Of a DNA stretch of 8,522 nucleotides, positions 193-7,655 are shown in pieces. The notes under the pieces were generated by a model. The model saw only the letters and a program-made list of their open reading frames with translations, ran no database searches and was not told where the DNA came from. Location: NCBI GenBank assembly GCA_023436825.1, contig JAEZHS010000060.1:1-8522 (forward strand). Reading direction: 5' to 3'. The DNA is from Pseudomonadota bacterium. GTDB taxonomy: Bacteria > Pseudomonadota > Alphaproteobacteria > Reyranellales > Reyranellaceae. Position numbers and translations under genes: made by a program. Each line of letters opens with the position of its first letter. The first letter of the stretch is position 1.

Positions 193-1047
193 ATGGCGCC
201 CTTCGACACCGGCCTCGCCCCCACCACCGCGCCCGACGTCGCGTTGCGGCGCATCGTGGCCGAGTGCCAGGCCGACCTCCGAAAGTACCGGATCATGGTC
301 CTGGGAAGCCGCCGTCCGGTCGGCATCCACCAGACGCGGGTGGCGCTGCGCCGCCTGCGCGCGGCCTTCGGCCTGTTCCGCCATGCCGTCGACGGCCCGG
401 TGGTGCGGGCGCTGTCGGCCGAGGCCAGGTGGCTGGCCGGCGAATGCGCCCCGGCGCGCGACCTGCATGTCTTCCTGACCGAGACGGTCGAGGACGTCCC
501 GCCGATCATCCAGCGCATCGCCCGCCGGCTCGCCGAGACCTACATGCAGCGCGCCCGCTCGGCCCTTTCCGGCGCGCGCTTCGAAGCCTTCGACCGCCAG
601 CTCCACACCTTCATCGATCTTTCGCCCGCCCATCCGACCGAGCGGCTCGACCATTTCGCGCTCGCCGAGCTCGACCAGCACCATGAGAAGGTCATGCATC
701 GCGGCCGCAAGATCGATACGCTCGATCCGCACCGCCTGCACCGGCTCAGGATCGCCATCAAGAAGCTGCCCTACGCCGCCGAGTTCCTGCAGCCGGCCTT
801 TGCCTCGGAAGCGGCCAAGCCCTATATCGAGGCCACGGCGCGCCTGCAGGGCGCGCTCGGCGCCATGAACGACCGCGCGGTCGCCCGCCATATGCTGGCA
901 GATCTCGCCACGGCCGCGCGTCCCAACGAGGACGCCAAAAGGCCGCTGAAGCGCCTCGCCAAGCAGACGGAGGCCGGCGAAAAGCGCCGCCGCCGCAAGC
1001 TCGAGCGGGCGTGGAAGACGTTCAGGCAGGTCGACAAATTCTGGTGA
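193..1047 (+). CDS. CHAD domain-containing protein
   Basis: This encodes a 284-residue protein that is essentially one CHAD domain, an all-helical, positively charged fold with conserved histidines. The family is known to bind inorganic polyphosphate and often associates with polyphosphate granules or with CYTH triphosphatases. Both signature helices are visible: HQTRVALRRLR at residues 46-56, and the repeat-related HRLRIAIKKLP at 183-193. The C-terminus (about 245-280) is very rich in Lys and Arg. No signal peptide or membrane segment is seen, so it is probably cytoplasmic. There is no CYTH domain in the protein or beside it, so it is the stand-alone type. The start is the ATG after a modest GGGA (185-188). 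One oddity is Pro193 where the family usually has Arg (KKLRYAAEF-like); a single base change (CCC versus CGC) would explain it. Downstream lies a co-oriented COG0523 GTPase, but no functional link is established. The family call is confident; the cellular role is not. Confidence 0.9.
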   Translation: MAPFDTGLAPTTAPDVALRRIVAECQADLRKYRIMVLGSRRPVGIHQTRVALRRLRAAFGLFRHAVDGPVVRALSAEARWLAGECAPARDLHVFLTETVEDVPPIIQRIARRLAETYMQRARSALSGARFEAFDRQLHTFIDLSPAHPTERLDHFALAELDQHHEKVMHRGRKIDTLDPHRLHRLRIAIKKLPYAAEFLQPAFASEAAKPYIEATARLQGALGAMNDRAVARHMLADLATAARPNEDAKRPLKRLAKQTEAGEKRRRRKLERAWKTFRQVDKFW

Positions 1048-2356: not shown

Positions 2357-3436
2357 ATGCCGAGGACCCTGTTCGACAAGATCTGGGATCGCCATGTCAT
2401 CGCCGATCTCGGCGACGACTACGCGCTGCTGCACATCAGCCGCCACCTGATGCACGACGGCGGCGGCCGCGGGCTCGCCATGATCAAGGCGTCCGGCCAG
2501 AAGGTGCGCAATCCCGATCTCACCTTCGCCACCTTCGACCACGTCATCTCGACCGAGCCCGGCCGCACCCACGACACGCTGAAGCCCTATGCACAACGAC
2601 TGTACGACATGCGCGAGGAAGCCAGGCGCTGGGGCATAAAACTGTTCGGCCTCGGCAAGCCGGGCCAGGGCATCATCCACGTCGTCGGCCCCGAGCAGGG
2701 CATCAGCCTCCCCGGCACGCTCCTGGTATGCGGCGACAGCCACACCTGCACCCATGGCGGCATGGGCGCCATCGCCTTCGGCATCGGCGCCACCGAGGTG
2801 ATCCACGTCCTGGCGACGCAGTCGCTGGTGCAGCGCAAGCCCAAGCGGCTGCGCGCCACCTTCGAGGGCACGCGCCATCCCGGCGTGACGCCGAAGGACA
2901 TGATCCTGCATCTGATCGGCCAGATCGGCACCGCCGGCGGCACGGGCTATGCGGTCGAGTACGCCGGCAGCGCCATCCGCGCGCTCGAGGTCGAGGGCCG
3001 GCTCACCATCTGCAACCTCTCCATCGAGCTCGGCGCCAAGATCGGCATGATCGCGCCCGACGACAGGTCCTTCGCCTATCTCGAGGGCCGGCCCTATGCG
3101 CCGACCGGGGCGATGTGGGACCAGGCCGTCGCCGACTGGCGTTCGCTCACCAGCGACGCCGACGCGGTATTCGACCGCGAGGTCACGGTCGACGTCGGCA
3201 AGATCGCGCCGCAGATCACCTGGGGCACCAGCCCCGAGCAGGTGATCCCGGTCACCGACAATGTCCCCGACCCGAGCTCCGTCGCCGATCCGGACAAGCA
3301 GAAAGCCATGCAGATGGCGCTGGACTACATGGGCCTGAAAGCCGGCCAGCCGATCCAGGATGCCAAGATCGACTGGGTGTTCATCGGGTCCTGCACCAAC
3401 AGCCGCATGTCCGACCTGCGCGCCGCCGCCGAGGTC
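2357..3436 (+). pseudogene. leuC: 3-isopropylmalate dehydratase large subunit-like (LeuC), 3'-truncated
   Basis: LeuC is the aconitase-fold large subunit that, with LeuD, isomerises 2- to 3-isopropylmalate in leucine synthesis. The first 360 codons match the family throughout: FDKIWDRHV at the start, CGDSHTCTHGGMGA, a GTAGGTGYAVEYAG segment, TWGTSPEQV, and GSCTNSR carrying the first [4Fe-4S] cysteine (Cys346, equivalent to E. coli Cys347). After RAAAEV the match stops. The last ~105 residues of the usual ~466, including the CxxC pair that supplies the other two cluster cysteines, are missing. The reading frame stays open to 3907 but encodes Arg/Pro-rich nonsense that overlaps the next gene. 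The start is supported by GGAAGGA (2344-2350), 6 bases before the ATG. No leuD follows. From 3438 an ABC permease continues in another frame, so the gene looks cut by a deletion or by an assembly join. It could also be a divergent LeuC paralogue (methylmalate or dimethylmaleate hydratase-like) rather than the leucine enzyme. It is very unlikely to be active. Confidence 0.88.
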
Positions 3437-3437
3437 G

Positions 3438-3738
3438 GTGACCCGCACCGTGATCGTGCCGTCGACCATGGCCTGGCTGTTCGCTTCGCTGACACCGGCC
3501 GTCTCCTTCTCGCTGATCGGCGTGATCGTGGGCGAGTTCATCGGCGCCGAGCATGGCATCGGCCGCATGATCATCGAGGCCGAAGCGCGCGGCGAGGCCG
3601 CCGGCATGATGGTGGCGGTCTTCGTGCTGATGATCGTGGGCGTGATCCTGGCTGCAGGTGTGCGGCGCATCCAGGCCTACTTGCTGCGCTGGCGGCCGGC
3701 GTCCACCATGGCGACCTGGAAAAAATCAGGGAGGATAA
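3438..3738 (+). pseudogene. ABC transporter permease (SsuC/TauC-type), C-terminal remnant
   Basis: From VTRTVIVPSTMAWLF onward this frame encodes the end of a BPD_transp_1 permease of the nitrate/sulfonate/taurine/pyrimidine-precursor uptake class. It includes a GVIVGEFIGAEHGIG segment and two hydrophobic helices (about 3465-3540 and 3600-3655), ending near RRIQAYLLRWRP. The N-terminal part and most of the EAA cytoplasmic loop that docks on the ATPase are absent; only the VIVP end of that motif remains. There is no start codon of its own, and it is fused out of frame to leuC. It also lacks a stop at the expected place: the frame runs on across the next gene. Removing one base from the A6 run at 3720-3725 would put it in frame with the TAA at 3736-3738, just before the next start codon, which suggests a slip there. 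The true end is therefore uncertain. No ATPase partner is in the window. Confidence 0.82.
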
Positions 3739-3741
3739 GCC

Positions 3742-4713
3742 ATGCTTCGACGCCATGCGCTGGCGGGATCGCTTGCCGCCGTCGCCATGCCCGCCGGTTC
3801 GCGCGTGTGGGCCCAGGCCTGGCCCGCCAAGCCGGTGCGCATCGTCGTGCCGTTCGGACCGGGCGGGCCCGCCGATGTCTATGCCCGCCAGCTCGGACAG
3901 GAGCTGAGCGAGGTCCTGAAGCAGCAGTTCGTCATCGAGAACAAGTCGGGGGCCGGTGCGGTGGTCGGCACCGACGTCGTCGCCAAGGCGGCACCCGACG
4001 GCTACACGATCCTGATGATGTCCAACACCCACACCACCAACGAGACGCTGCTCGCCAACCGCCCCTATTCATTGATGAAGGACCTGACGGCCGTGGCGCC
4101 GGTCAACTCGTCCGATCTGGTGATCGTGGTGAACCCGGAGGTGAAGGCCAAGACGCTGCAGGAGTTCATTGCCCTGGCCAAGGCCGAACCGGGCAAGCTC
4201 AACTACGCCTCGTCGGGACCGGGCACGCCCTATCACATGGCGGGCGAGCTGTTCAAAGCCATGAGCGGCACCGACATCGTGCACATACCGCACAAGAACA
4301 GCGCCGACGCGCGCAACGCCGTGATCGGCGGCCATGTCCAGATGATGATCGACGCGGTGACGGCGATGAAGGGCCATATCGATGCCGGCCAGGTGCGTGC
4401 GCTTGCGACGACGGGGACCACGCGCTCGGCCGTGCTGCCCAACGTGCCCACCGCCAACGAGGCCGGGGTTCCGGGCTACGAGGCCACGATCTGGCTCGGG
4501 ATCATGGCGCCCGCAGGCACGCCCAAGGACATCATCGAGCGGCTGAACGCCGAGATCGCCAAGGTGATCGCCAAGCCCGCCCTCCGCGAGGCCTGGTCCA
4601 AGCAAGGCGCGGTCCCCATGACCATGACGCCCGTCCAGTTCGAGACCTACCTCAAGGGCGACATCGACAAGTGGGCCAAGGTGATCACGCAGGCCGGCAT
4701 CAAGACGCAATGA
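3742..4713 (+). CDS. Bug/TctC-family periplasmic substrate-binding receptor
   Basis: This 323-residue extracytoplasmic receptor is of the tripartite tricarboxylate transporter (TctC/Bug) family, which binds carboxylates or related small molecules. It has an N-terminal signal (residues 1-26): an RR pair, a short hydrophobic stretch, then VWAQA as the probable cleavage region. The arginine pair hints at Tat export but the motif is incomplete. The mature part has the family signatures KPVRIVVPFGPGGPADV (about 30-46), ENKSGAGAVVG, APDGYT, NYASSGPGTPYHMAGELF, HIPHKNSADARNAVIGG, LPNVPTANEAGVPGYE and the terminal APAGTPKDIIERLNAEI. GGGAGG (3729-3734), 7 bases before the ATG, fixes the start. No tctA/tctB membrane genes are present, which is common for this family because the receptors are often orphans. 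It overlaps the next gene by 4 bases (ATGA). The ligand cannot be predicted. It appears intact although both genes before it are broken. Confidence 0.95.
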   Translation: MLRRHALAGSLAAVAMPAGSRVWAQAWPAKPVRIVVPFGPGGPADVYARQLGQELSEVLKQQFVIENKSGAGAVVGTDVVAKAAPDGYTILMMSNTHTTNETLLANRPYSLMKDLTAVAPVNSSDLVIVVNPEVKAKTLQEFIALAKAEPGKLNYASSGPGTPYHMAGELFKAMSGTDIVHIPHKNSADARNAVIGGHVQMMIDAVTAMKGHIDAGQVRALATTGTTRSAVLPNVPTANEAGVPGYEATIWLGIMAPAGTPKDIIERLNAEIAKVIAKPALREAWSKQGAVPMTMTPVQFETYLKGDIDKWAKVITQAGIKTQ

Positions 4714-5405
4714 AGGCGGTCCGCATCCTGAGCGGCGGAGCCGCGCAAGGCCTGGTCGAAAGCGTGCGGCCGGCCTTCGAAGCCGAAACCGGTTGCACCA
4801 TCGACGGCGTATTCGGCGCGGTCGGGGCGATGAAGGCGCGGCTGCTGTCGGGCGAGCCGGCCGATCTCCTGATCCTGAGCCGCGCGCTGATCGAGGAACT
4901 GGCCCGGGCCGGGCACGTCGTGCCGGCCTCGATCAGGGACATCGGCGAGGTGCCGACATCGGTCGCGGTGCGTGCGACCGATGCGCCGCCGCAGCTCGAG
5001 ACCGCCGACGACCTGCGTGACGCGCTGCGCGCCGCGGACGAGATCCATTTCCCCGACCCCGAGCTCGCCACCGCGGGCATCCACTTCGCCAAAGTGATGC
5101 GCGATCTCGGCGTATGGGATGAGCTGCGCGAGTGCCTGCAGCCGGCGCCCAACGGTGCAACCGCGATGGCTGCACTCGCCGCTTCCACGAGCGCGAGGCC
5201 CATCGGCTGCACCCAGGCGACGGAGATCCTGTCGACGCCGGGCATCGTGCTTGCCGCACCGCTGCCGCCCGGCTGCGCGCTGGCGACCACCTACACCTGC
5301 GCAGTCACCGGCCATGCTGGGGTGCCCGAACCGGCGGCATCGCTGATCGCCCTGCTGACCAGCGACGCGAACCGCGATGGGCGTCGCGCCATCGGATTTG
5401 CCTGA
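4710..5405 (+). CDS. Substrate-binding-domain protein (ModA/PBP-like) lacking a signal peptide
   Basis: This is a 231-residue protein with a type-2 periplasmic-binding-protein pattern close to SBP_bac_11/ModA. Its features are MKAVRILSGGAAQGLVESVRP (start), FEAETGCTIDGVFGAVGAMKARLLSGEPADLLILSR (the usual lobe-1 layout), FPDPELATAGIHFAKVM in the middle and IGCTQATEI near the end. ModA itself binds molybdate or tungstate, but many relatives bind other anions and the ligand here is unknown. The coding sequence starts directly with the first beta strand, so no signal peptide or lipobox is present and the product would stay in the cytoplasm unless it is carried by another route. The ATG overlaps the TGA of the preceding receptor gene (ATGA at 4710-4713), implying translational coupling and a related role. 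The last codons (TSDANRDGRRAIGFA) match the usual family end, so the gene is full length. A cytoplasmic ligand-sensing role is possible but inferred. Confidence 0.82.
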   Translation: MKAVRILSGGAAQGLVESVRPAFEAETGCTIDGVFGAVGAMKARLLSGEPADLLILSRALIEELARAGHVVPASIRDIGEVPTSVAVRATDAPPQLETADDLRDALRAADEIHFPDPELATAGIHFAKVMRDLGVWDELRECLQPAPNGATAMAALAASTSARPIGCTQATEILSTPGIVLAAPLPPGCALATTYTCAVTGHAGVPEPAASLIALLTSDANRDGRRAIGFA

Positions 5406-5578
5406 GCGTTTGACCCGGTCTGCTCTTCGCCACGCGATCCTGTGCTATGTCGGCCGCCTCCGTGTCCTATTAGTATGGACTTGATGGAGACCGACCGCAC
5501 GGCGGCAGACAAGCCTTGCTTGCCGCGTCTGGACGGCGGCAAACTCGGCCGCAACCAACCAGCATGAAGAGAACAGAC

Positions 5579-6379
5579 ATGGCCGTCGTCGAAACCGAAC
5601 GTCACGGGCAGGTGCTCGTAGTCCGCATGAACAGGCCCGACCGGCTGAATGCGCTCAACACCGAGATGCGTACGGAACTCGCCCACATCTGGACCGACTT
5701 CCGCCACAGCAAGGAGCTCGAGGTCGCGATCTTCACCGGCACGGGCCGCGGCTTCTGCGCCGGCGAGGACATGAAGGAGTCGCTGCAGAAGGGCGTCGCC
5801 GGCGGCGAGCGGCCCAAGCAGGAGGACCCCTTCATGACCGGCGCGCTGGAAAAGCCGGTGATCGCCGCGGTCAACGGCTTCGCCATGGGCGGCGGCTTCA
5901 TGCTGGTCGAGCGCACCGACCTGCGCCTCGCCGTGCGCGAGGCGATCTTCGAGGTCTCCGAAGCAAAGCGCTGGCTCCTGGGCGGCTACAACCACGGCCA
6001 CATCGCCAACGTGCCCTATCCCATCGCCATGGAGATGGCGCTGGGCTTCCGCTTCACGGCGCAGCGCTTCTACGAGATCGGGTTCCTCAATCGCCTGGTC
6101 GACGCCGCCGACCTGATGCCCGAGGCGCTGAAGATGGCCGAGCACCTCCTCACCCTGCCGCCGGCCTCGCGCGTCAACACCGTGCACATGATGCGCCAGA
6201 TGCGCCCCGCCCCCGGTCCGGACATGCAGAAGCTCGCCGCCGCCCTGCACGAGCACGGCGCCAAGAGCGACCTCATGGAATCGCGCGCCGCCTTCGCCGA
6301 GAAGCGCAAGCCCAACTTCAAGGGCTGGAACGATCCAGAGGACCGTTACCGGCTGCCGACGCTCAATTCGGTGAAGTGA
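5579..6379 (+). CDS. Crotonase-superfamily protein (enoyl-CoA hydratase/isomerase-like)
   Basis: This 266-residue crotonase-fold protein would act on an acyl-CoA thioester in the cytoplasm. Visible motifs: NRPDRLNALNTEM near the N-terminus; FCAGEDM (residues 59-65), the first oxyanion-hole segment; NGFAMGGGFM (about 99-108), the second. In canonical hydratases a Glu follows GGG-x (rat mitochondrial Glu144); here that position is Met108. The second catalytic Glu (rat Glu164) seems kept as Glu128 in FEVSEAK. Loss of one Glu is seen in crotonases with isomerase, dehydratase or hydrolase chemistry, so simple hydratase activity should not be assumed. In-frame starts exist at 5516 (TTG), 5564 and 5579. 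The last is chosen because GAAGAG (5566-5571) lies 7 bases before it and MAVVETERHGQVLVVRMNRP is a typical family start. The gene stands alone, 173 bases after the receptor cluster, and ends 3 bases before the convergent PIN remnant. Confidence 0.92.
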   Translation: MAVVETERHGQVLVVRMNRPDRLNALNTEMRTELAHIWTDFRHSKELEVAIFTGTGRGFCAGEDMKESLQKGVAGGERPKQEDPFMTGALEKPVIAAVNGFAMGGGFMLVERTDLRLAVREAIFEVSEAKRWLLGGYNHGHIANVPYPIAMEMALGFRFTAQRFYEIGFLNRLVDAADLMPEALKMAEHLLTLPPASRVNTVHMMRQMRPAPGPDMQKLAAALHEHGAKSDLMESRAAFAEKRKPNFKGWNDPEDRYRLPTLNSVK

Positions 6380-6382
6380 CGT

Positions 6383-6664
6383 ACTGCTAAGCAGCCATTC
6401 GGCCAGCGTACGGGGCGAATGGATGGCAACGACGGCAAGCCTGCGCCCATAGAACCGACCGAAGTGCGCGCGATCACCTGTGACCAGCGCGTCGCACGAC
6501 ATTCGGACGGCTGCGGCAACGACGGGCCGGTCTTTTTCGGGCAGCCCCGAGAGAGCCGTCGCCGAATCAGGATCGGCTTGCAGCGGGGCTACCTCGAGCC
6601 GATCGAGCAAGGCGGCCAGCGCAGACAATCCTTGCGGGCCCTTCGCCGCGAGATTTCGGCAATC
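6383..6664 (-). pseudogene. PIN-domain protein (toxin-like), 3' remnant
   Basis: Read on the minus strand, this stretch encodes the C-terminal half of a PIN-fold ribonuclease like those of VapC-type toxins. It begins with NLAAKGPQGLSALAALLDRL, passes LPEKDRPVVAAAV and CDALVTGDRAHFGRFYG, which contains the late conserved acidic residues, and ends at IHSPRTLAEWL. The N-terminal half, with the first catalytic Asp (usually a xVDTNVLI-like strand) and the middle Glu, is missing. Directly upstream in the same frame is the TGA of the small membrane protein gene (6665-6667), so that gene now occupies the place of the lost 5' part. No start codon with a ribosome-binding site is present; a TTG at 6628 is the first possible one. 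The usual stop also seems lost, since the frame runs on antisense into the crotonase gene. It is a dead fragment. No antitoxin gene is visible. Confidence 0.72.
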
Positions 6665-7045
6665 TCAGCCGACGCCGATACCGATCAGCATCAGCGCCGC
6701 CGCCATCAGCATCCAGCCCGGATGGCGGCCGTCGTTCGCCCAGAAGTTCCCGAGCGCGCCGAACAGGTAAAGGCCGCCGACCAGCAGGCCGGTGACCAGC
6801 CGCGCCTGCGGCTCGAACCAGCAGGCAGCGACAATCAGGGCTACTGCGCCCAGCAGCCAGGCGAACGTGCTGAACTGCATGAGCAGCGGCACGAGCCGCC
6901 GGACCGCCTGCGGCGTCCGCGGCTCGGCAAGGAAGGTGGCCTCGACCGGCCGGACCACCAGCCGCTGGATCAAAACACCATGGATGACGGCGGTGACCCC
7001 GCCAATGACCCCGGCCATGGCCAGGGCAGCACTTTGCCAGTTCAT
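6665..7045 (-). CDS. Small four-helix membrane protein, unknown function
   Basis: This is a 126-residue very hydrophobic protein with four probable membrane helices, at about residues 5-27, 51-75, 80-101 and 109-125. The loops contain RPVEATFLAEPRTPQAVRRL (28-51 region) and FWANDGRHPGW (101-111). I do not recognise a named family. Two ATGs are possible, 7051 and 7045; 7045 is preferred because AGAGG (minus strand, 7059-7055) lies 9 bases before it but only 3 bases before the other. The gene is divergent from a TetR-type regulator and shares its operator region, so it is the likely regulated target. Its ribosome-binding site sits in the centre of an operator, so a bound repressor would cover the region around the transcription and translation starts. 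An inducible membrane or efflux-accessory protein is a reasonable guess but no more. The stop codon directly abuts a PIN-gene remnant. Confidence 0.8.
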   Translation of the reverse strand: MNWQSAALAMAGVIGGVTAVIHGVLIQRLVVRPVEATFLAEPRTPQAVRRLVPLLMQFSTFAWLLGAVALIVAACWFEPQARLVTGLLVGGLYLFGALGNFWANDGRHPGWMLMAAALMLIGIGVG

Positions 7046-7067
7046 GACCATACACCTCTGTATGGTC
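7046..7067. promoter_or_regulatory. Operator 1: 9-bp-arm palindrome at the membrane-protein start
   Basis: GACCATACA, spacer CCTC, TGTATGGTC is a perfect inverted repeat. It lies directly before the ATG at 7045 of the leftward gene and contains that gene's ribosome-binding site. A nearly identical site lies 46 bp away (operator 2). Size and symmetry fit a dimeric TetR-family repressor, and the divergent tetR-like gene next door is the obvious source. Binding is inferred. Confidence 0.75.
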
Positions 7068-7096
7068 GATATGGCGCAACGGATGGCCGCCGTCAA
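7068..7096 (-). promoter_or_regulatory. Predicted promoter of the membrane-protein gene
   Basis: On the minus strand TTGACG (7096-7091) is separated by exactly 17 bases from CATATC (7073-7068). The -35 box matches 5 of 6 consensus bases and the -10 box 3 of 6. Transcription would begin around 7062, inside operator 1, while operator 2 touches the -35 box. Both sites are thus well placed to block this promoter. The -10 match is weak, so confidence is moderate. Confidence 0.45.
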
Positions 7097-7115
7097 TACA
7101 CTTGTGTATGGTCGA
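7096..7115. promoter_or_regulatory. Operator 2: second copy of the palindromic site, upstream of tetR
   Basis: ATACAC, TT, GTGTAT (7096-7109) is a perfect inverted repeat, followed by GGTCGA. The whole 20-bp stretch matches operator 1 (7050-7069) at 18 of 20 positions, giving the shared pattern ATACACYTSTGTATGGTCGA. It ends 3 bases before the ATG of the TetR-type gene, so the regulator probably represses itself. Centre-to-centre spacing to operator 1 is 46 bp, about 4.4 helical turns. Confidence 0.72.
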
Positions 7116-7118
7116 CCC

Positions 7119-7655
7119 ATGACCGATCGCCTCGCCAAGTCCGACTGGATAAAACGCGGTTTGCACACGCTCGCGGCCGAGGGCGCCAACGCCCTGAAGG
7201 TCGGGCCGATGGCGGACGGGCTGAAAGTGTCGCGCGGCAGCTTCTACTGGCACTTCCGCGACATCGCCGACTTTCGCGCACAGCTCCTGCAGGCCTGGCA
7301 GGAGCAGGCGACCGAGCGGGTCATCGAAGAGCTTGAAGCGCGCAAGGACCGGCCGGATCGCCTGAAGCAACTCATGCGGCGTGCCTTCACCGGCAAACGC
7401 AGCCTGGACCGCGCCATCCGGTCTTGGGCCGCCGAGGATCGCGCGGTCGCTGCCATCGTGGCGTCGGTCGACGCCCGCCGTGTCGGATACATCGCGAAAA
7501 TGCTGGCGGCGACCGGGGTGGAGAGCCAGAAGGCGCTGCGCCGCGCCGCCTTCCTGTACTGGGCCTATCTCGGGCAGCCCATGGTCATGGAACCCCGCCA
7601 TGCCTCGATCGCGCCGGCGGCCCTGGACGACATCGGCGACCTGTTTGAAAGGTGA
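7119..7655 (+). CDS. TetR-family transcriptional regulator
   Basis: This 178-residue one-component regulator has an N-terminal helix-turn-helix followed by a ligand-binding/dimerisation domain. The DNA-binding part is clear: WIKRGLHTLAAEGANALKV (residues 10-28), then the recognition segment LKVSRGSFYWHF (35-46), a typical TetR signature. The C-terminal part (about 60-178) is helical and divergent, as is usual for ligand domains; it includes RRAAFLYWAYLGQPMV near residue 140. The ATG at 7119 gives the standard family N-terminus. Alternative in-frame ATGs at 7062, 7071 and 7083 would add unrelated residues and read through the operators. No ribosome-binding site precedes 7119: the 15 bases before it are operator sequence, so a leaderless or very short leader transcript is possible. 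It probably controls the divergent membrane protein gene and itself. The inducer is unknown. Confidence 0.92.
   Translation: MTDRLAKSDWIKRGLHTLAAEGANALKVGPMADGLKVSRGSFYWHFRDIADFRAQLLQAWQEQATERVIEELEARKDRPDRLKQLMRRAFTGKRSLDRAIRSWAAEDRAVAAIVASVDARRVGYIAKMLAATGVESQKALRRAAFLYWAYLGQPMVMEPRHASIAPAALDDIGDLFER

Follow-up and report, generated by a model that had tools for sequence, protein, structure and literature searches.

A leuC–ABC permease junction in a Reyranellaceae bacterium, probably the scar of a recent deletion in an accessory leuCD–transporter cluster

Introduction

The closest described counterparts of the gene junction reported here are the repair scars of induced chromosome breaks in Streptomyces, for which the available part of the study gives deletions of 191 to 23,591 bp, 40% of the scars carrying one untemplated base or 1–4 filled-in bases (PMC5869714). 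The available portion of a further paper (PMC7719229) contains none of the terms Reyranella, Rhodospirill- and Alphaproteobacteria, and the accessible parts of the literature on Reyranella together with isopropylmalate dehydratase or deletion, and on leuC loss, yielded nothing on this locus.

Here we analyze 8,522 nucleotides of a Pseudomonadota bacterium (contig JAEZHS010000060.1; the whole stretch is called the window), which is DNA of the Reyranella family. About 3.4 kb appears to have been lost from an extra leuC–leuD and transporter cluster, leaving two broken genes end to end. We give a probability of roughly 0.86 to the reading that one recent deletion in the chromosome, about 3.4 kb long and likely closed by end joining, left two non-functional remnants.

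Results

Gene layout of the window

The features of the window are as follows.

193–1047, plus strand: CHAD-domain protein (PF05235), intact left flank, in the same place in L001, L002, L006, L007 and L015
1085–2257, plus strand: CobW/COG0523-type GTPase (PF02492, PF07683), intact left flank
2357–3436, plus strand: 5′ part of leuC, codons 1–360 of 464 (NF009116, TIGR00170; match to L001 LeuC 1–360)
3415–3433, plus strand: leuC stretch resembling the permease sequence at the other breakpoint in 15/19 bases (test on L001)
3437–3438, plus strand: probable deletion join, G3437 being the sole base common to both parents, ~3.4 kb missing (comparison with relatives)
3438–3716, plus strand: 3′ part of an SsuC/TauC-type ABC permease gene, last 93 codons, out of frame with leuC (PF00528; L001 permease 224–316)
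3717–3719, plus strand: permease stop codon changed to TGG (TAA or TGA in L001, L002, L007, L015 and G035)
3742–4713, plus strand: TctC/Bug-type solute receptor (PF03401), intact right flank, in the same place in L001, L002, L006, L007 and L015
4710–5405, plus strand: SBP_bac_11 binding protein (PF13531), intact right flank
5579–6379: enoyl-CoA hydratase
6668–7189, minus strand: frame without a Pfam match
After the 6668–7189 frame: TetR-like regulator (22.9 bits, slightly below the Pfam cut-off of 24)
Window's end: start of a gene that we take to be polA

By LeuC, the closest named relatives are the Rhodospirillales MAG RBC080 (L001, 95%), a Reyranella sp. MAG (L007, 95%) and Reyranella soli (L015, 94%), and none of the 80 relative loci kept on the basis of LeuC is identical to the window. 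The CobW/COG0523-type GTPase shares 95–97% amino acid identity with its counterparts in L001, L002, L007 and L015. Among 72,556 plasmid records, seven matched window positions 2357–5405, each match being confined to the leuC part (query 8–1081) at 72–78%; a plasmid origin was rejected on this ground and because the presumed polA and the collinearity with relatives point to the chromosome.

Several features outside the join were also observed. The receptor stop and the SBP_bac_11 start overlap in an ATGA at 4710–4713, which suggests that two different binding-protein classes may be translationally coupled. The interval 5406–5578, which separates the SBP_bac_11 gene from the enoyl-CoA hydratase gene, falls short of its counterparts in L001, L007 and L002 by roughly 250–690 bp, and the equivalent place in L002 holds a frame that, by eye, we take to be a VapC-type PIN protein. 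About 290 bp between the enoyl-CoA hydratase gene and the next gene (6382–6670) are missing at that place in L001, L002 and L007; read on the minus strand, they resemble the C-terminal half of a PIN-domain-like protein (PIN_3, E 0.02; 16.2 bits, cut-off 27) and may be what is left of a decayed toxin–antitoxin system.

Two gene remnants joined head to tail

An earlier note on this DNA, made from its letters alone, had proposed that LeuC identity runs unbroken to 3436 and gives way at about 3438 to permease identity in another frame, and this head-to-tail join is confirmed by profile matches and by the DNA of six relatives. Positions 2357–3436 (360 amino acids) fit TIGR00170 as far as profile position 361 of 466, where the fit ends, and the intact LeuC of L001 matches over residues 1–360 at 94.7% with nothing beyond. 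The remnant scores 517.9 bits with NF009116 and 464.9 bits with TIGR00170, both under the cut-off, whereas the L001 protein passes both models (TIGR00170, 646.8 against 560.25 bits). The C-terminus is lost as the note had claimed, namely the 104 codons for L001 residues 361–464, with the CxxC pair C406 and C409; the cysteine positions were aligned to the solved structure 4kp2, and C346 of GSCTN is retained. Of the three ligands of the 4Fe–4S cluster in a functional LeuC, which we take to be C346, C406 and C409, C346 alone therefore remains, and no leuD match that could supply the LeuD partner adjoins the remnant.

On the other side of the join, residues 224–316 of the L001 permease match 3438–3716 at 100% in the next frame, and 3438–3740 fits BPD_transp_1 (PF00528) over positions 99–177 of 184 only. 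The N-terminal residues 1–223 are gone, as had likewise been proposed, including NAARLLG, which we assume to be part of the EAA loop; the 93 residues left of 316 do not make up a complete transmembrane domain with its coupling (EAA) loop. The join is out of frame, so that leuC reads on into another frame of the permease and receptor genes to base 3907. Because the permease stop is lost, a 681-codon frame (3360–5405) is also open through the permease remnant, the out-of-frame receptor gene and the SBP_bac_11 gene, and gene-calling software might annotate it as a single protein.

Comparison with unbroken relatives

A search for an unbroken leuC–leuD to permease region in related genomes found it, with flanks collinear with the window. 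In six relatives, the DNA match ends at base 3437 on the leuC side and restarts at 3437/3438 on the permease side, and the bases between the two flanks number 3,446 (L001), 3,436 (L002), 3,445 (L004), 3,430 (L006), 3,395 (L007) and 3,494 (L015). In L001 this segment opens with the leuC 3′ end and closes with the permease 5′ end, and between them lie leuD (TIGR00171 score 166.4, cut-off 116.25) and the genes for an NMT1-type binding protein and an ABC ATPase; leuD, NMT1 and ATPase have no match anywhere in the window, in line with the note's claim that leuD is lost. The unbroken order CHAD–cobW–leuC–leuD–NMT1–ATPase–permease–Bug–SBP is found in L001, L002, L006, L007 and L015, and as far as the permease in L004 and L116. 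A distant Acetobacteraceae locus (L029) retains leuC–leuD–NMT1–ATPase–permease, and the join of the window is thus derived, since this outgroup has the long form. Gene order and base-exact breakpoints in all six relatives compared (6/6) accordingly support the proposal that one deletion removed the intervening genes.

The cluster itself is patchy. LeuD is encoded at 10 of the 16 relative loci searched, including every locus with both leuC and ABC genes. In G039, G067 and G029, cobW is followed by NMT1–ATPase–permease, and neither leuC nor leuD is matched in between; G041 carries NMT1–ATPase–permease with no cobW match within a 13-kb stretch; and L039 has leuCD with no ABC-gene match. Across L113, L114, L115 and L039, the leuCD pair and the ABC genes occur as a mosaic in the interval from cobW to the downstream genes.

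Distribution of the join

When 75 family genomes were searched with a 401-base probe centred on the join (E 1e-20), no match spanned it, and an exact 35-base pattern of the join had no match in viral contigs. The same join in a relative, which if expressed as a single protein would according to the note have argued against pseudogenes, was thus not matched in the 75 genomes. Some match was given by 65/75 genomes, mostly by the leuC half alone at 72–88%, and these leuC-half matches are taken as other leuC-like loci. They end at or before probe position 200 except for one reaching 210 (78% identity); under a looser limit, one leuC-half row reaches 218 (75%) and one 37-base row covers 179–215, neither coming near to spanning the probe. 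Permease-half rows begin at position 178, 187 or 200, the early starts (178 and 187) being due to the imperfect repeat beside the breakpoints. Both halves lie on one contig in 7/75 genomes (G001–G005, G007 and G070), separated every time, and in G024 they lie on different contigs and are thus uninformative.

Joining mechanism

The note had also suggested microhomology-driven joining, which the comparison does not bear out: the parents share one base (G3437), and this 1-bp overlap is at chance level (random mean 0.77–0.79), so that homology was not the driver of the join. An overlap of 1 bp lies within the zero to few shared bases expected of end joining. Ku (PF02735) was detected in 7/8 relatives and the LigD polymerase domain (TIGR02778) in 7/8, both being present in G035 and neither matched in G007. 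On this circumstantial evidence, the chance-level overlap and the frequency of Ku/LigD, end joining after a break is most likely the route, in preference to microhomology-driven joining.

The same deletion might instead have arisen by slipped replication or RecA-independent exchange between imperfect 19-bp repeats, a route that we regard as somewhat unlikely. It draws on a repeat, identical in 15/19 bases, that lies beside both breakpoints and is seen less often than chance would give (of 2406 random breakpoint pairs in L001, 4 reach that identity), and on the permease break of a sister locus (G035, below) at the opposite edge of the same repeat stretch. However, the join falls outside the repeat and, in our own reading, is offset from it by two bases, although a clean slip would preserve the register, and the repeat test was picked after the match had been noticed. 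When five stretches of 121 bases from relatives were folded as DNA, no hairpin rose above shuffled expectation at either site (z −0.58 to 1.11), and hairpins at the breakpoints were rejected as a cause.

Loss of the cluster in a sister lineage

At this locus, the closest relative found, G035 (dS to the window 0.135–0.268 across five genes), gave no match to leuC, leuD or NMT1; its leuC-like DNA is located in other parts of the genome. Here the DNA preceding leuC runs into 234 bp of the ATPase gene, and this piece is in turn joined to the permease, a two-step deletion visible in L112 around bases 2047–2587 on the minus strand. As we read the alignments, the first of these joins has one extra base (A) and the second one shared base. 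The permease break lies 29 bp upstream of that in the window (7543 versus 7572 on the L001 scale). The TctC/Bug receptor of G035 carries 8 nonsynonymous and 11 synonymous private codon changes, the former including an in-frame stop and a change of the start from ATG to GTG.

In G035, two deletions other than that of the window thus took away most of this segment. Neither the deletion in G035 nor that in the window is derivable from the other, because the window retains leuC codons 1–360, whereas G035 retains the ATPase piece and 29 bp more of the permease. The cluster has probably been lost twice, recently, in the lineage of the window and in that of G035. An older deletion shared through their ancestor is very unlikely, the permease remnants differing by 13 synonymous changes and one nonsynonymous change, which is in the last codon (P 4.6e-7 if neutral).

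We consider it rather unlikely that the permease break is a fragile site in the genus, at which two sister species independently and recently lost the leuCD–ABC cluster, their breaks lying 29 bp from each other on the edges of a single imperfect repeat. If it were, the locus would be a natural readout of end joining in alphaproteobacteria bearing Ku/LigD.

Age of the deletion

Against L001, the permease remnant shows 18 synonymous and no nonsynonymous changes. Private changes of the window, counted at codons where the reference relatives agree, comprise 22 synonymous and 7 nonsynonymous ones in leuC (references L001, L007 and L015 only, there being no G035 leuC), 20 and 3 in cobW, and 3 and 0 in the permease remnant. 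The dN/dS of the leuC remnant to L001, L007 and L015 is 0.066–0.118, compared with 0.069–0.090 among those three intact copies; against L002 it is 0.158, compared with 0.131–0.175 for the intact copies. The remnants thus still look selected, which suggests that the break is recent and has left little time for neutral change apart from the permease stop, now TGG. That amino acid changes are hardly in excess in the leuC remnant fits a fresh deletion and fits a misjoin as well.

Discussion

The results favour a single deletion, which would have taken out everything from the 3′ end of an accessory leuC gene, through leuD, the NMT1-type gene and the ABC ATPase gene, to the 5′ part of the permease gene; Ku/LigD-type end joining with one base shared would then most likely have closed the break, and the permease stop was lost afterwards. 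We infer from the comparison that the join is present in living cells. The note had named a contig misjoin as the alternative, in which an assembler wrongly connected pieces of a single intact operon or of two different strains, and the organism's cluster is unbroken. Such an artefact would be in keeping with the lack of a match to the join in the 75 family genomes and, for the exact 35-base pattern, in the viral contigs, with the fused protein (P0001, 516 amino acids) being a single member sequence, and with remnants that look selected as though intact. A k-mer assembly graph, however, needs a shared k-mer to misjoin, and the 1-bp overlap offers none, so that a misjoin would require a chimeric read; two contigs are listed for P0001 (the longest of 48,799 bases), possibly from the same data; gene order and orientation fit a simple deletion and not a random chimera; the permease stop has since changed to TGG; and the decaying sister locus in G035 counts for a real deletion. 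The alternative is thus weakened, and we retain it as unlikely.

That the fusion is a working new protein, a LeuC domain with a novel 156-residue tail, is scarcely credible: the 516-codon frame (2357–3907) is open, but its tail is an out-of-frame reading of the permease and receptor genes, equally open over the permease part in 5/5 relatives, where it is unused, and changing faster than the native frame (71–79 of 92 residues retained versus 89–92 of 92), and its LeuC part is without C406, C409 and a leuD. The tail found one full-length match among 7,991 scored candidates, the window's own, the only other match covering 9% at 47%; among cluster representatives, in the best 120 of 8,000 scored, the closest protein besides P0001 is a 468-amino-acid LeuC (P0003, 94%).

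On the deletion reading, neither remnant would function. The truncated LeuC, without the CxxC ligands and its LeuD partner, should neither hold its iron–sulphur cluster nor pair with LeuD, and the permease fragment would lack its N-terminal membrane part, the core of the coupling loop and the ATPase, so that the transporter is predicted to be gone; the downstream receptor and binding-protein genes are intact. Each of eight relatives (G001–G007 and G035) has at least one further leuC-like DNA match, and a further leuC copy in the assembly of L001 (L019) passes TIGR00170; with such loci in all eight, the loss was probably tolerated, and leucine synthesis is probably spared, being supplied by another leuCD. 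The combination of a dehydratase with anion-type transporters suggests that the lost cluster may have served the uptake and isomerisation of an organic acid.

The scar itself is ordinary gene decay, or genome erosion. Its value is that it documents, to the exact base and with polarity, how an operon was recently lost in Reyranellaceae, and that it shows sister lineages losing one accessory leuCD/transporter cluster repeatedly. It is also a warning to annotators, in that the open 516- and 681-codon frames across it are not genes.

Compared with known systems, residues 1–360 of the window protein are a normal bacterial LeuC of the NF009116/TIGR00170 kind, whereas this copy ends before the CxxC ligands and is without leuD. 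In the same way, the last 93 codons are identical in protein sequence to the L001 permease, of the SsuC/TauC/NtrB type, whereas the remnant has no N-terminal part, no adjoining ATPase gene and no native start or stop. Finally, although the window case is known from comparison alone, whereas the Streptomyces breaks were induced, the locus resembles Ku/LigD end-joining scars in the kilobase size of the deletion, in the 0–1 shared bases at the joins and in the extra A at the first join of G035.
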